From NCBI GenBank assembly GCA_035939775.1, contig DASZFO010000159.1, forward strand, positions 1 through 64,000: a DNA stretch of 64,000 nucleotides, read 5' to 3'. A model generated the notes under the pieces. That model was given only the letters and a program-made list of their open reading frames with translations. It ran no database searches and had not been told where the DNA came from. Shown piece by piece: positions 18,921 to 41,440 of the stretch. Source of the DNA: Pirellulales bacterium. Its GTDB lineage: Bacteria; Planctomycetota; Planctomycetia; Pirellulales; DATAWG01. How positions within the stretch are numbered: position 1 is the stretch's first letter; the number at the start of each line of letters is the position of its first letter. The position numbers and the translations under genes were made by a program.

Positions 18921-19868
18921 GTGCTTCTCGCCTATAACACCAACGGCCTCGCACTTCACGACCCAGCCGAAGCGATCAAGTTATTGGCCGAGATTGGGTA
19001 TCGCGGCGTGGGGCTGACGATCGATCGGGATCTGCTCAATCCGTACGTCGACGGGTTTGAGAAATCGATCGCGCAGGTGCGCAAGCTGCTCGAGCAATAT
19101 GAGATGCGGTCGGTTGTCGAAACCGGGGCGCGATTTCTCCTCGATCCGATGAATAAGCATGAGCCGACATTGATGACGGCCGAGCGAGCGGGCCGCGCGC
19201 GGCGGATCGAGTTCTACCGCCATGCCATCGACATCGCGCAGGCATTGGGGAGCGATTGCGTTTCGCTGTGGTCCGGCAAGCTGAATGCTTCCATGAACCG
19301 CCGGGGACTGTCCCCTTTTGTGGAGTCTTCGGAACAAAAGGGGACTGTCCCCCTTTCCGCAGGCGATTCTCAGATGGGCTCTAAGGCGGCGTTCTCCCGC
19401 TTGATCGAAGGTTTGCAGCAAGTCTGCGACTATGCGGACCTGAAGCAGGTGATCCTCGGCTTCGAGCCCGAGCCGGGGATGTTCATCGACCGCATGGACC
19501 GCTACGAGGAGCTGGCGGCGAAATTTGCCGGATCGCCGCTGCGGCTCACGCTCGACATCGGCCATTTGCATTGCCAGGGTGAAGTGCCGATCGCCGGCCA
19601 GATTCGCATTTGTGGTCGGCGGATCGTGAACGTGCATATCGAGGACATGCGAACCGGGATCCACGAGCACCTGATGTTCGGCGAGGGGGAGATCGACTTT
19701 CCACCGGTGATCGCCGCCCTGCGGGCAATCGATTACCGCGGACTGCTGCAAGTGGAATTGAGCCGGCATAGTCATGTGGGACCGGAGGCGGCCCGGCAGG
19801 CATATGATTATCTGCATCCGCTCGTGGCGGCCAAGCAGCCGCAACTGGCGAGGCCGGAGAAACGGTGA
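18921..19868 (+). CDS. eboE: Xylose-isomerase-like TIM-barrel protein, EboE-like, with in-frame palindromic insertion
   Basis: 315 aa sugar-phosphate isomerase/epimerase-type TIM barrel. It opens MLLAYNTNGLALHDPAEAIK and has metal-site segments GFEPEPGMFIDRMDRY, LTLDIGHLHCQGE, VNVHIEDM and LLQVELSRHSH. It starts with GTG 6 bases after eboC. Residues about 125-155 (NRRGLSPFVESSEQKGTVPL and flanks) are not part of the fold. They are encoded by a 90-bp palindromic element (19295-19384) inserted in frame in the loop after the strand VSLWSGK. The product is probably still active, since the insertion is in a loop and the catalytic segments are intact (inference). Confidence 0.78.
   Translation: MLLAYNTNGLALHDPAEAIKLLAEIGYRGVGLTIDRDLLNPYVDGFEKSIAQVRKLLEQYEMRSVVETGARFLLDPMNKHEPTLMTAERAGRARRIEFYRHAIDIAQALGSDCVSLWSGKLNASMNRRGLSPFVESSEQKGTVPLSAGDSQMGSKAAFSRLIEGLQQVCDYADLKQVILGFEPEPGMFIDRMDRYEELAAKFAGSPLRLTLDIGHLHCQGEVPIAGQIRICGRRIVNVHIEDMRTGIHEHLMFGEGEIDFPPVIAALRAIDYRGLLQVELSRHSHVGPEAARQAYDYLHPLVAAKQPQLARPEKR
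19295..19384 (-). repeat. In-frame GGGGACTGTCCCC palindromic element, copy A
   Basis: 90 bp inside the EboE-like gene, in the opposite orientation to copies B and C. It contains two self-palindromic 13-mers GGGGACTGTCCCC joined by TTTTGTGGAGTCTTCGGAAC and bounded by GAACCGCC and GGCTCTAA. By eye it matches copy C (31520-31609, reverse complement) with only a few mismatches. 90 bases is 30 codons, so the host frame is kept. Confidence 0.88.
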
Positions 19869-28286: not shown

Positions 28287-30032
28287 ATGCAGTTTTCGAA
28301 TACAACCCAAATGCTGGCCAGGGCGCCACGGCGTTTAGAGCCTATCCGAGAACTGGCTGCGGAGAGGGGGACAGTCCCCTTTGGTTCCCGACCATCTGGC
28401 GATGGTGCCCGCTCCACAAAGGGGGACAGTCCCCGGCGGTTCTCGGATAGGCTGTTAGTCGGTGTCGCGATTGTTTTGATCGGCTTGATCTGCGGCTGCA
28501 CGCCGTGGGGCGAGTACGTTCACAACGGATTCAAAGTCGGGCCAAACTATGGCCGGCCCGCGGCTCCGGTCGCCCGCGACTGGATCGACGCCAACGACGT
28601 GCACGTGCGGCACGATGAACAAGAGCAAACCCGTTGGTGGAGCGTGTTCCACGATCCGGCGCTCGACGCGCTGATCTGCACGGCCTACCGCCAGAACCTG
28701 ACGTTGCGGGCCGCCGGATTCCGGATCCTCGAAGCCCGGGCGCAACTCGGTATCGATACGGGCAATCTCTTCCCTCAAACGCAAGACGCCGCTGGCGCTT
28801 ATCGCCATAGCGAAGCCAGCCGGGAAAATGGCGGAGGAGGAGGCGGGGGTAGTCGATTCAGCAACAATGTCAACTTCGGCTTCAATATGGCCTGGGAACT
28901 CGATTTCTGGGGGCGCTTCCGGCGGGCCATCGAATCCGATTCGGCAAGTCTCGACGCCTCGGTCGAACTCTACGACGCAGCTTTGCTCACACTCCTGGGC
29001 GACATCGCCACCGATTACGTGCAGATGCGCACGACCGAGCAGCAGATCAAGTACGCGGAGGAAAATGTAAGGATTCAACGCGAGACATTGCGCATCGTCG
29101 AAGTCCAGGTCGTCGGGCCCGGTCATAGCGAATTGGATATCGACCAGGCTCGGAGCACGCTATTGGCCACCGAAGCCGCAATTCCTGAGCTAGAAATCAG
29201 CTTGCGTCAATCGATTACCCAACTCTGCATCCTGCTCGGAATTCCGCCGGAGGATTTGCGAGCCCGGCTCGGCCCCGGTCCGATTCCGACGGCGCCCGCG
29301 GAGGTAGTCGTCGGCATCCCGGCCGATCTGCTCCGCCGCCGGCCGGACGTGCGAGCCGCCGAGCGGCAACTGGCCGCCCAGTGTGCACTGATCGGCGTCG
29401 CCGAATCGGCCTTCTACCCCGCGATTTCGATCAATGGCAGCTATGGATGGTCCGCGTCGAATCTCAGCCATCTTTTTGAGCCCAACGCGATCACTGGCTC
29501 GGTCGGACCGTCGTTTCAATGGAATGTACTCAACTACGGCCGGATTCTGAACGGCGTTCGCTTCCAGGACGCCAAGTTCCAGGAACTCCTGGCAACCTAT
29601 CAAAACACCGTGCTTGCCGCTAATCAGGACGTGGAAAACGGATTGGTGACCTTCTTGCGCGGTCAAGTGCGCACTCAGCTTCAGCAGGAGGCAGTGGATG
29701 CCGCCAGAAAAGCCGTCGATATCGCGACGTTTAAGTATAAGTCCGGAAGCGCGAATTTCACTACCGTCACGCAGGTCCAACAAACTCTCGTCGTGCAGGA
29801 AAACACGCTGGCTCAAGCGCAAGGCGAGATCGTCACCGGCTTAATCCAAGTTTATCGAGCATTGGGAGGCGGATGGCAGATTCGCTTGACGGGATGCAAT
29901 GAAAACCTTCCGCCGCCGGGAGTCGCCCCCGCGCCCTGGCAGCCGCCCAAGGAGTCGGAAGAGGTGCCTGCCCCGACCGACGTGACGCCGCCACCGCTGC
30001 CGCAGAAGACGCCCGAGAATAACAAGAACTAG
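28287..30032 (+). CDS. RND efflux outer-membrane factor lipoprotein, with repeat inserted in its signal peptide
   Basis: 581 aa TolC/NodT-type outer-membrane factor. The lipoprotein signal core LLVGVAIVLIGLICGC precedes the mature start CTPWGEYVHNGFKVGPNYGR. Two OEP repeats follow, with paired ELEISLRQSITQLCILLG and LLRRRPDVRAAERQLAAQ motifs. It is a close paralogue of the factor at 39863-41440; both starts are preceded by the shared CGAATGGAATCG, which supports ATG 28287. Between MQFSNTTQMLARAPRR and the hydrophobic core lie 41 codons encoded by a palindromic element (28335-28457), so the n-region of the signal is greatly lengthened. No pump gene is adjacent, so it may serve an unlinked pump. 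Confidence 0.85.
   Translation: MQFSNTTQMLARAPRRLEPIRELAAERGTVPFGSRPSGDGARSTKGDSPRRFSDRLLVGVAIVLIGLICGCTPWGEYVHNGFKVGPNYGRPAAPVARDWIDANDVHVRHDEQEQTRWWSVFHDPALDALICTAYRQNLTLRAAGFRILEARAQLGIDTGNLFPQTQDAAGAYRHSEASRENGGGGGGGSRFSNNVNFGFNMAWELDFWGRFRRAIESDSASLDASVELYDAALLTLLGDIATDYVQMRTTEQQIKYAEENVRIQRETLRIVEVQVVGPGHSELDIDQARSTLLATEAAIPELEISLRQSITQLCILLGIPPEDLRARLGPGPIPTAPAEVVVGIPADLLRRRPDVRAAERQLAAQCALIGVAESAFYPAISINGSYGWSASNLSHLFEPNAITGSVGPSFQWNVLNYGRILNGVRFQDAKFQELLATYQNTVLAANQDVENGLVTFLRGQVRTQLQQEAVDAARKAVDIATFKYKSGSANFTTVTQVQQTLVVQENTLAQAQGEIVTGLIQVYRALGGGWQIRLTGCNENLPPPGVAPAPWQPPKESEEVPAPTDVTPPPLPQKTPENNKN
28335..28457 (+). repeat. In-frame GGGGACAGTCCCC palindromic element, copy B (longest)
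   Basis: 123 bp, exactly 41 codons. Terminal inverted repeats AGCCTATCCGAGAAC (28339-28353) and GTTCTCGGATAGGCT (28439-28453) are perfect over 15 bases and extend to TTAGAG/TGTTA. Two GGGGACAGTCCCC 13-mers lie at 28367-28379 and 28422-28434, with a longer central loop than copies A and C (18 extra bases, six codons). It lies within the signal-peptide-encoding part of the outer-membrane factor gene, in the same frame as copy C. Confidence 0.9.
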
Positions 30033-30751: not shown

Positions 30752-32422
30752 ATGTCGGTAACTAAGCATTCGAATAATCCGCGTTTGTCGGTGGCGATGA
30801 TTGCCCGTGACGCCGAGCATTTGATCGCCGCGTCGCTCGATAGCGTCCGCGAGATGGCCGACGAAATCATCGTGGCCGACACCGGCTCCATCGATCGGAC
30901 TCGGCACGTGGCGCTGGCCCGGGCGACGCACGTCGTGACGATCCCTTGGATCGACGACTTTTCGGCTGCCCGCAACGCTTGCCTCGATCGGGCGAAAGGA
31001 GATTGGGTCCTCTGGCTCGATGCCGGCGAAACGATCGACGCCGCCACCGCCGATGAGATTCGGCGATTTGTCGATGAAGATGCCGATCCATCGCAGGCCT
31101 ATCTGATCCTCGTCCAGCTCCCGCCGGCCCAGGATAATCTGGCTGGAGAGCAGGTCGCGCGCATTCGCTTGATGCCGAACAAGAAGGAAATTCGGTTTCG
31201 CGGCCGAGTCCGCGAGAACCTGCGGGGCGCACTCGGCGCGCTCGGAATGTCGATCGAGCCGACTTCATGGTGCATCCACCGCACAGCGGCCGATCACGAT
31301 CCGGCGATCAAATCGCGGAAGGCCCGCCGCGACCTGAAGCTGGCGGAGCTGGAAATCCGCGACCGCGGTCCGGCGGCCAGCCCGTTGATCGCGTCGGGCG
31401 AGGCCTGGACCAACCTGGGTGAATCGCGGCAGGCGATCGATTGCTTTCAGCAGGCGCTGGCCCTATCCGGTCGCGGCTCGACGGAAATGCTCGAGGCCTA
31501 TTACGGAATGCTCGCCACCTTAGAGCCGTTCCGAGAACCGCCTGCGGAGAGGGGGACAGTCTCCTTTTGTTCCGAAGACTCCACAAAAGGGGACAGTCCC
31601 CGGCGGTTCTCGCAGCCACAGGACCACGATCTCCAGATCAAGACCTGCTTGGAAGCGCTGGAGATCTTTCCGTTCGACGCCCAGTTGCTCTGCGCCATTG
31701 CCAGCTACATGCAGAATCGCGGGCGGATTGATTTGGCCAACCGGGCCTATCAATCGGCCGTCACGCATGGGCAAATCAATCTCGAGACCTGGCATCTCAC
31801 CTCGCTGCACGAAGTGGCGGCGAGCTGCCTTAGCCTGTCGCTCGAATTATTGAACCAAGACGATGACGCCAGGCACGTGCTGGAAGAGGCGTTGTCCGCC
31901 GGCGGCGATGCCGTACGCCTGCGGCGCCGCTTGATCGATCTGCACATCAAGCACGATCGCCGGAAGGAGGCGTTGGAGCAGGTCGGCTTGCTCCCGGGCC
32001 AGAGCGGGCAGCTCGATGTCCTGCGGACGGCGGTTCGCGGAGCTTGTCTGGCTGGAAAGAAGGAATGGAATTCCGCTCGCACGTTTCTTCAAACCGCCTA
32101 CGACGCCGGCTGCCGCGATCTCGTCTGTCTGCGCTGGCTGGCCGTCACGCTAATCGCTTGCGATCAACCCTCGGCGGCCGAGCCGATCCTGCGGCAATGG
32201 CAAGCCGCGGCGCCCGGCAATCTCGAAGCACAGAAATACGTCGAATCGCTGTCGGTTCAATCAAGTGCCACGAGCGGCTCATCCCGCGTTGCTCCGCTCG
32301 CGCCGGCGGATACCGAGCGGCGACTGCGAGGCGATGTCCCAACCAGTCCGGCCCTCGGCCTCTTCCCGCCGCACTCGGGCGGATTCTCCACAGTCGGCAT
32401 CAATGCGACGTCCGGCAAGTGA
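30752..32422 (+). CDS. Glycosyltransferase family 2 - TPR protein, with in-frame palindromic insertion
   Basis: 556 aa. GT2 domain in the first 230 residues: LSVAMIARDAEHLIAASLDS, the acidic DEIIVADTGSIDRT, WVLWLDAGETID (nucleotide-sugar/metal region) and VRENLRG. The C-terminal half consists of TPR-like helical pairs (ESRQAIDCFQQALALSGRG; QLLCAIASYMQNRGRIDLAN). Such SunS-like GT2-TPR fusions usually glycosylate proteins or peptides, or build surface glycans. Residues about 257-288 (from LEPFREPPAERGTVSFC on) come from a palindromic element at 31520-31609, in frame, between two TPR helices. ATG 30752 has AAGGAG 6 bases upstream. Confidence 0.82.
   Translation: MSVTKHSNNPRLSVAMIARDAEHLIAASLDSVREMADEIIVADTGSIDRTRHVALARATHVVTIPWIDDFSAARNACLDRAKGDWVLWLDAGETIDAATADEIRRFVDEDADPSQAYLILVQLPPAQDNLAGEQVARIRLMPNKKEIRFRGRVRENLRGALGALGMSIEPTSWCIHRTAADHDPAIKSRKARRDLKLAELEIRDRGPAASPLIASGEAWTNLGESRQAIDCFQQALALSGRGSTEMLEAYYGMLATLEPFREPPAERGTVSFCSEDSTKGDSPRRFSQPQDHDLQIKTCLEALEIFPFDAQLLCAIASYMQNRGRIDLANRAYQSAVTHGQINLETWHLTSLHEVAASCLSLSLELLNQDDDARHVLEEALSAGGDAVRLRRRLIDLHIKHDRRKEALEQVGLLPGQSGQLDVLRTAVRGACLAGKKEWNSARTFLQTAYDAGCRDLVCLRWLAVTLIACDQPSAAEPILRQWQAAAPGNLEAQKYVESLSVQSSATSGSSRVAPLAPADTERRLRGDVPTSPALGLFPPHSGGFSTVGINATSGK
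31520..31609 (+). repeat. In-frame palindromic element, copy C
   Basis: 90 bp from TTAGAGCC to GGCGGTTC within the GT2-TPR gene. Internal 13-mers are GGGGACAGTCTCC (one substitution) and GGGGACAGTCCCC, separated by TTTTGTTCCGAAGACTCCAC. It is in the same orientation and codon phase as copy B; the encoded AERGTV..STKGDSPRRFS is shared. It is nearly identical to the reverse complement of copy A. Confidence 0.9.
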
Positions 32423-39862: not shown

Positions 39863-41440
39863 TTATTTCGGCGCTGGCAGGCTTGGCTTGACCTCGGTTG
39901 GCGCGGGCGGCTGCACGGTCTCCGGCGGCGGCCGCCACGGAGCTGGGGCGACTCCGGGGGCTGCGAGCGCTTCGTTGCAGCCGCTGAGCCGAATCTGCCA
40001 TCCGCCCCCCAAGGCCCGATAGACCTGGATCAGTCCGCTGACGATTTCCCCTTGCGCTTGGGCCAGCGTATCTTCCTGCTGAACCAAGGCCTGCTCGACC
40101 TGGGTGACCGTGGTGAAGTCGACCGTGCCGGCTTTGTATTGCACGAGCGCGATCTGGACCGCTTTCTTGGCGTTGTCAACGCTCTCCTGTTGAAGGCGAG
40201 TGCGCATCTGGCCGCGCAAAAACGTGACCAGCCCATTTTCGACGTCCTGATTGGCGGTGAGGACTGATTGTTGATAAGTGGCCAGCAGCTCTTGGAACTT
40301 GGAATCCTGAAGGCGCACGTTGTTCGAAATCCGGCCGTAGTTGAGCAGGTTCCACTGGAACGTTGGGCCGACCGAGCCGGTGAGCGCCGCCGGCTCGAAC
40401 AGGTGGCCCAGATTCTGGGCCGCATAGCCATACGAGCCGGTGATGGAAATCGCCGGATAAAACTGAGATTGAGCGACGCCGATCAAGGCGCACTGGGCCG
40501 CCAACTGGCGTTCCGCGGCCCGCACGTCCGGCCGGCGGCGCAACAAGTCCGCCGGAATGCCAACCACCACATCTGGCGGCGCGGTCGGAATGCCGCCCGG
40601 CCCGAGGCGAGCGCGAAGTTCCTCCGGCGGCATCCCGAGCAATACGCAAAGCTGGTTGATCGTTTGCCGCAAGCTGATTTCCAGCTCGGGGATCGCAGCC
40701 TCCGTGGCGGCAAGCGTGCTGCGGGCCTGATCCAAGTCCAATTCGCTAATCGTGCTGGCTTTGAACCGCGCGTCGACGATCGTCAAGGTCTCACGCTGCA
40801 CACGAATGTTGTCCTCGAAGTATTTGATGCGCTGTTCGGTGGTCCGCATCTGCGCGTAGTCGGTGGCCACGTCGCCCAGCAGCGTGAGCAGCGCGGCATC
40901 GTAGTTCTCGACCGAGGCGTCGAGATTGTCCGAATCGGCTTCGATCGCTCGCCGGAAGCGTCCCCAAAAGTCGAGTTCCCAGGCGAGATTGAAGCCGAAG
41001 TTCCACTGGCTAAAGAAATGCTTCGTCAGATTGTTCGACGCCAGCGCGGTCCGTTTGCTGACGGCATTGCGCTGATAGTTGCCGGTGGCGTCTTGAGTCT
41101 GCGGGAAGAGATTCCCGGTGTCGATTCCCAATTGGGCTCGCGCCTCGAGAATCCGGAAGCCCGCTTCGCGGAGCGTCAGGTTTTGCCGGTAGGCGGTGCA
41201 GATGAGAGCTTCGAGCGCTGGATCGTGGAACGCTCCCCACCACCGCGTCTGCTCGTCTTCATCGCGCCGCAAGCGCGAATCGTTGGCGTCGATCCAATCA
41301 TGGGCGACCGGCGCCGCGGGGCGACCGTAGTTCGGCCCGACTTTGAAGCCGTTGTGGATGTAATCGCCAATGGGCGTGCAACCGCAGAACAGTCCCGCCA
41401 TGAGCAGGGGAGCGCACAGTTTCCACGTGAAGCCACGCAT
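39863..41440 (-). CDS. RND efflux outer-membrane factor lipoprotein
   Basis: 525 aa from Met 41440, which gives a clean lipoprotein signal MRGFTWKLCAPLLMAGLFCG-C. A longer open frame upstream adds sequence with no homology to the paralogue at 28287. The mature protein has the NodT/OprM-type repeats: ELEISLRQTINQLCVLLG and LLRRRPDVRAAERQLAAQCA in the first half, VENGLVTFLRGQMRTRLQQE and TTVTQVEQALVQQEDTLAQA in the second. It forms the outer-membrane channel for the upstream pumps. It is the last gene of the adaptor-pump-pump-channel locus, 319 bases after the second pump. Confidence 0.9.
   Translation of the reverse strand: MRGFTWKLCAPLLMAGLFCGCTPIGDYIHNGFKVGPNYGRPAAPVAHDWIDANDSRLRRDEDEQTRWWGAFHDPALEALICTAYRQNLTLREAGFRILEARAQLGIDTGNLFPQTQDATGNYQRNAVSKRTALASNNLTKHFFSQWNFGFNLAWELDFWGRFRRAIEADSDNLDASVENYDAALLTLLGDVATDYAQMRTTEQRIKYFEDNIRVQRETLTIVDARFKASTISELDLDQARSTLAATEAAIPELEISLRQTINQLCVLLGMPPEELRARLGPGGIPTAPPDVVVGIPADLLRRRPDVRAAERQLAAQCALIGVAQSQFYPAISITGSYGYAAQNLGHLFEPAALTGSVGPTFQWNLLNYGRISNNVRLQDSKFQELLATYQQSVLTANQDVENGLVTFLRGQMRTRLQQESVDNAKKAVQIALVQYKAGTVDFTTVTQVEQALVQQEDTLAQAQGEIVSGLIQVYRALGGGWQIRLSGCNEALAAPGVAPAPWRPPPETVQPPAPTEVKPSLPAPK

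Follow-up and report, generated by a model that had tools for sequence, protein, structure and literature searches.

An outer-membrane efflux factor gene of the OprM/TolC type (28287-30032, + strand), found in the 64,000-nucleotide stretch of DNA analysed here (the window), carries a palindrome in its lipoprotein leader, between MQFSNTTQMLARAPRR and the hydrophobic core LLVGVAIVLIGLICGC. What this palindrome is, whether it is translated as part of the leader, and how the gene tolerates it are the questions addressed below.

The palindrome and its host gene

The gene is an unbroken ORF of 581 codons with an ATG start, and its product matches the Pfam family OEP (PF02321, E 2.2e-45). The paralogous outer-membrane factor at 39863-41440 (- strand), 76% identical, lies 11 kb away next to an RND pump, has the signal MRGFTWKLCAPLLMAGLFCGC and contains no palindrome; as the initial annotation had noticed, both genes have CGAATGGAATCG in common. 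By inspection, RRFSDR-LLVGVAIVLIGLICGC has the features of a lipoprotein signal, i.e. a basic n-region, a hydrophobic core and a lipobox with its cysteine. Core and lipobox occupy 28452-28499 (+ strand), with Cys71 as the acceptor residue.

Alignment of the family described in the next section places the boundaries of the element at 28338-28454 (+ strand). It is 117 bp long, is 97% identical to the family consensus, and would be translated as codons 18-56 (EPIRELAAERGTVPFGSRPSGDGARSTKGDSPRRFSDRL), its last codon being the first Leu codon of the core. The left terminal inverted repeat, GAGCCTATCCGAGAACT (28338-28354, + strand), and the right one, GGTTCTCGGATAGGCTG (28438-28454, + strand), are common to the family copies, and 15 nt of the left arm are perfectly complementary to the right. 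Inside them lie two core hairpins with the sequence GGGACAGTCCC, the core that is repeated genome-wide, at 28368-28378 and 28423-28433 (both + strand); their spacing of 55 bp assigns the copy to the frame-neutral subtype. The RNA form of the element folds at -69.5 kcal/mol (z = -5.35), and no shuffled sequence folded equally well.

The element is flanked by a TTA target-site duplication (28335-28337 and 28455-28457), and joining the flanks restores MQFSNTTQMLARAPRRLVGVAIVLIGLICGC. The net gain is therefore 120 bp, or 40 codons. The initial annotation had described an insertion of 41 codons, removable as exactly 123 bp; the insertion into the signal n-region is borne out by the duplication and by the paralogue and relatives that lack the element, but the size was one codon too large. 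Its estimate of an n-region of nearly 60 residues agrees with the 55 or so that we count. The gene stayed open because 117 + 3 makes 120 and because the frame in which the element is read contains no stop.

It might be argued that the gene is a dispensable paralogue in the course of being lost and that the insertion in it is neutral, considering that a close paralogue sits beside an RND pump only 11 kb away. However, the 581-codon frame has remained intact after the insertion and coding periodicity continues downstream of it (score 11.7 with a simple codon model), while core enzymes, as discussed below, bear the same element. We regard gene decay as very improbable.

A dispersed, MITE-like family

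The core 13-mer GGGGACAGTCCCC has 936 matches (with at most one mismatch) in the 6.39-Mb genome, compared with 3 for a reversed control. Since most copies have two cores, this corresponds to several hundred copies. In a sample of 1.48 Mb, roughly one quarter of the genome, we counted 124 related copies; it should be noted that the survey used a draft assembly, and that gene context was assigned with the simple codon model plus Pfam. Intact copies range from 99 to 118 bp, most of them being 117-118 or 99-100 bp long (the usual frame-neutral forms have 117 or 99 bp), and 35 of them end in the terminal inverted repeat GAGCCTATCCGAGAACC and its complement. Exact 3-bp direct repeats flank 20 of 34 intact copies, whereas shuffled pairing of the flanks gave a mean of 6.1 and a maximum of 15 in 10,000 shuffles. 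The duplicated triplets are varied (TTA, TAA, TTC, TTG, TCC, ATA). Such 3-bp duplications are the mark of transposition, and, together with the ends, they point to transposition as the probable mechanism by which the family spread.

A length within 70-300 bp, lack of a transposase of its own, many dispersed copies, terminal inverted repeats and target-site duplication are the features of a MITE. The label MITE-like is preferred because the search turned up no transposase gene bounded by the same ends; the parent element may have been lost, or may lie in the unsampled sequence. Matching ends were absent from the four DDE_Tnp_1 fragments and from the Y1 loci, and the sample held no convincing pair of such ends 0.5-3.5 kb apart. 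An IS5-type parent was discarded, as no DUF4096 gene was present and the four DDE_Tnp_1 fragments lack the ends. A 1.6-kb pair of inverted repeats (L066) spans ordinary genes and was attributed to chance. Mobilization by a RAYT, as for a REPIN, was likewise rejected: the four Y1_Tnp loci have neither the core repeat nor the terminal repeats around them, and 3-bp duplications argue against Y1 chemistry.

At least three or four copies are grouped within 1.6 kb on contig C248 (L139:16918-18519). Some copies have within them or next to them a repeat of a second family, which encodes SPSPLTGEGRGEGVA (L065:14908-15055, L085:719-767, L075:901-987 and L135:17099-17201); this family also occurs in frame in ORFs, RecG among them.

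Copies within genes

Enough flanking sequence was available for 110 copies, 23 of which have same-strand coding signal on both sides. Among these 23, the reading frame is the same on the two sides and free of stops in 19, the same but with a stop in 3, and different in 1. The frame-neutral class, defined by a hairpin spacing of 1 mod 3, accounts for 17 of 18 in-gene copies as against 38 of 78 elsewhere (Fisher p = 3.5e-4); when only the family with the same terminal repeats is counted, the figures are 10 of 10 and 20 of 35 (p = 0.019). Most simply, the element inserted at many sites, and cells in which it had disrupted a gene were then lost.

The 19 in-frame copies in the 1.48-Mb sample fall in many unrelated conserved genes, as expected of a protein-coding palindrome. 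The hosts include a class-III aminotransferase, DNA polymerase X (PolX), an FGE-sulfatase-domain protein, the methionine synthase MetH, ferrochelatase, ZnuA, NAD synthase, RecG, an altronate/galactarate dehydratase, a TIM-barrel protein and a GT2/TPR protein. The copies in MetH, ferrochelatase, the FGE protein, ZnuA, PolX, the aminotransferase, RecG and NAD synthase split conserved domains or fall between them, and past the element the Pfam domains and the alignments to solved structures resume. When ferrochelatase is aligned to a solved structure, the match breaks off at residue 242 and is taken up again at 286, a stretch over which the template advances from 265 to 269; the element makes up residues 244-282. 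For MetH, a 20-residue gap marks the element. Orthologues of PolX and of the TIM-barrel protein from many genomes have no element, although the insertion site in PolX falls in a variable loop, long in the two nearest genomes too.

Two of these hosts are in the window itself. A short-subtype copy with a worn right end (31523-31614, + strand) lies in frame in the glycosyltransferase-2/TPR ORF 30752-32422, and another short-subtype copy (19289-19380, - strand) lies in frame in the xylose-isomerase-like TIM-barrel ORF 18921-19865 (+ strand). Separately, a copy at L141:6662-6766 (contig C106) is in frame near the N-terminal end of a protein that bears LEARQMLSA, a planctomycete surface motif.

The family consensus has four fully open frames, and the other two are open up to a stop at their extreme end. 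This gives no support to the idea that selection has kept the element free of stops, because four open frames also arise in 10-17% of shuffles.

Start of translation

The initial annotation had recognized that a translation start downstream of the element would reduce it to untranslated sequence. Upstream of the core, the only ATG, GTG or TTG starts are ATG 28287 and ATG 28311, both of which precede the element, and a scan of the sequence between element and core found none. Past the element, the first standard starts are TTGs in the core itself, from which no more than about 4-7 residues would remain ahead of the lipobox cysteine. The sole possible downstream start is the non-standard CTG at 28452, the last codon of the element. 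A downstream start is therefore unlikely, and, unless this rare CTG start is used, the element would be translated.

If initiation did occur at CTG 28452, or at some other non-standard codon beyond the element, the element would be 5' untranslated sequence and its hairpin would act on the mRNA, an arrangement that has been suggested for many REPs. The leader from CTG would then be MLVGVAIVLIGLICGC. Codons 1-17 indeed carry little coding signal (left-flank score 0.6 in the codon model), and many REPs at apparent N-termini are probably extragenic according to a REP survey (PMC3733652). However, a leader from CTG would have no basic residue before its core, and no properly placed ATG, GTG or TTG exists downstream of the element. 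Moreover, the frame has been kept exactly, by 120 bp, and no stop has arisen. Copies of the family deep in conserved domains, such as those in MetH, ferrochelatase and others, have to be translated. We therefore hold an untranslated element to be improbable.

The explanation we favour, to which we assign a probability of roughly four in five, is that a non-autonomous MITE-like palindrome transposed into the lipoprotein gene in frame, next to codon 17, and is read through, the leader then being cleaved off. Initiation would take place at ATG 28287 (or ATG 28311), and the ribosome would proceed through the element, producing an n-region of about 55 residues whose basic end (RRFSDR) directly precedes the hydrophobic core. 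The whole leader would presumably be removed at Cys71 by the Sec machinery and the lipoprotein signal peptidase, leaving the mature protein unaltered; expression, translation, export and cleavage of the lipoprotein are predicted here from the sequence. Read-through would generate leader peptides such as GTVPFGSRPSGDGAR, and N-terminal peptides containing AERGTVPFGSRPSGD.

Removal of the signal peptide had been put forward in the initial annotation as the explanation of how the insertion is tolerated. This is reasonable, but it is not the whole reason, because the same element lies in frame within the mature domains of many cytoplasmic enzymes. Two further factors are important: the element neither shifts the frame nor brings in a stop, and relatives already have n-regions that are long and variable. 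Copies that break the frame would be purged by purifying selection, and the n-region would be one of several permissive sites.

Relatives and other leaders

Matches to the element at E <= 1e-10 were found in only six of 147 genomes of the order. Many matches occur in the window's own genome and in one genome from another family (G030), where copies are up to 87% identical; a genome of the same family (G001) has partial matches only. An exact 22-mer scan of the genome contigs, with the window's own genome left out, gave no match.

At the level of the locus, relatives are 48% identical or weaker, which suffices to assign the phylum only. The lipoprotein orthologue in G001 has a long n-region without the element; the n-region of the same-family orthologue L033 has about 40 residues and no element. 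In the orthologue L035 (G035:C86), the n-region is REGEAPAEPRAP, which derives from an unrelated dispersed palindromic repeat. To judge from these leaders, n-regions in this lipoprotein family are long and variable. The repeat at L035 encodes REGEAPAEP and has 230 matches in G035, none in G000, and 0, 0 and 1 in three other genomes of the genus of G035.

Copies of the element directly before the core were also found in the leaders of two prepilins, two other lipoproteins (one of them ZnuA) and one Sec-type signal; these are listed without any claim of enrichment, given how often elements occur a short way upstream of genes. In the two pilin-like genes, the copies (L068:2597-2687 and L075:14988-15059) immediately precede the prepilin motif GFTLVELLVVI. 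A ZnuA-type lipoprotein (L109:18627-19760) has a copy in the signal n-region and a second within the mature domain.

The recurrence of copies in leaders of several other exported genes, the stable hairpin, and the basic RRFSDR abutting the hydrophobic core could suggest that the insertion is adaptive, the element giving leader or mRNA a function, for instance by slowing translation through the hairpin or by supplying basic residues that help targeting. We consider this very improbable, since most copies are extragenic or belong to unrelated genes, the paralogue and the relatives manage without the element, and n-region length varies freely across the lipoprotein family. A broader proposition is that this is a planctomycete family of mobile palindromes whose two main length classes (99 and 117 bp, plus the 3-bp duplication) and largely stop-free frames are shaped for life within genes, and that unrelated repeat families have independently and repeatedly settled in secretory leader n-regions. 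This is speculative, and we think it rather unlikely to hold as a whole.

Comparison with known palindromes

Among known systems, the bacterial MITEs (Correia/NEMIS, ERIC, RU-2; PMC2229807) are likewise non-autonomous, with terminal inverted repeats and target-site duplications, and occasionally form in-frame fusions; a RU-2 element partly forms the signal peptide of YPO1552 (PMC2229807). They differ from the present family, which has a large in-frame class that is frame-neutral by length, and for which no parent insertion sequence was found. The GTAG/CGTC REPs of Opitutus terrae (PMC3733652) are palindromes of the PVC superphylum that also occur in frame within core genes, and N-terminal cases have been discussed for them; however, they are 20-40 bp long, with GTAG/CGTC tags and RAYT transposases, unlike the 99-118 bp elements described here with their terminal repeats and duplications.

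The closest likeness is to the Rickettsia palindromic elements (RPE) and the Wolbachia protein-coding palindromes (Ogata et al. 2000, 2002, 2005, cited in PMC2229807 and PMC10969869). In the accounts given by these sources, they are about 100-150 bp long and dispersed, with many copies in frame in conserved protein genes and some at N-termini. The present family has clear terminal inverted repeats and duplicates 3 bp of its target, whereas PMC2229807 lists the target-site duplication of RPE as unknown; moreover, its host is a planctomycete-like genome of 6.4 Mb with several hundred copies. By analogy, the element can be said to behave like the Rickettsia and Wolbachia palindromes in a different phylum, the likeness being one of behaviour alone. 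A description of such a palindrome family from a planctomycete was not found in the open-access literature.

Implications

Translated selfish palindromes have been described mainly in Rickettsiales with reduced genomes, where they are usually explained by genetic drift. That a planctomycete-like genome contains several hundred copies, some of them tolerated within MetH, ferrochelatase and similar enzymes, indicates that an intracellular lifestyle is not required. The 3-bp duplication and the frame-neutral length classes make the survival of random 30-40 residue insertions by proteins a testable question. For annotators, the lesson is that a long n-region or an odd loop may turn out to be mobile DNA.
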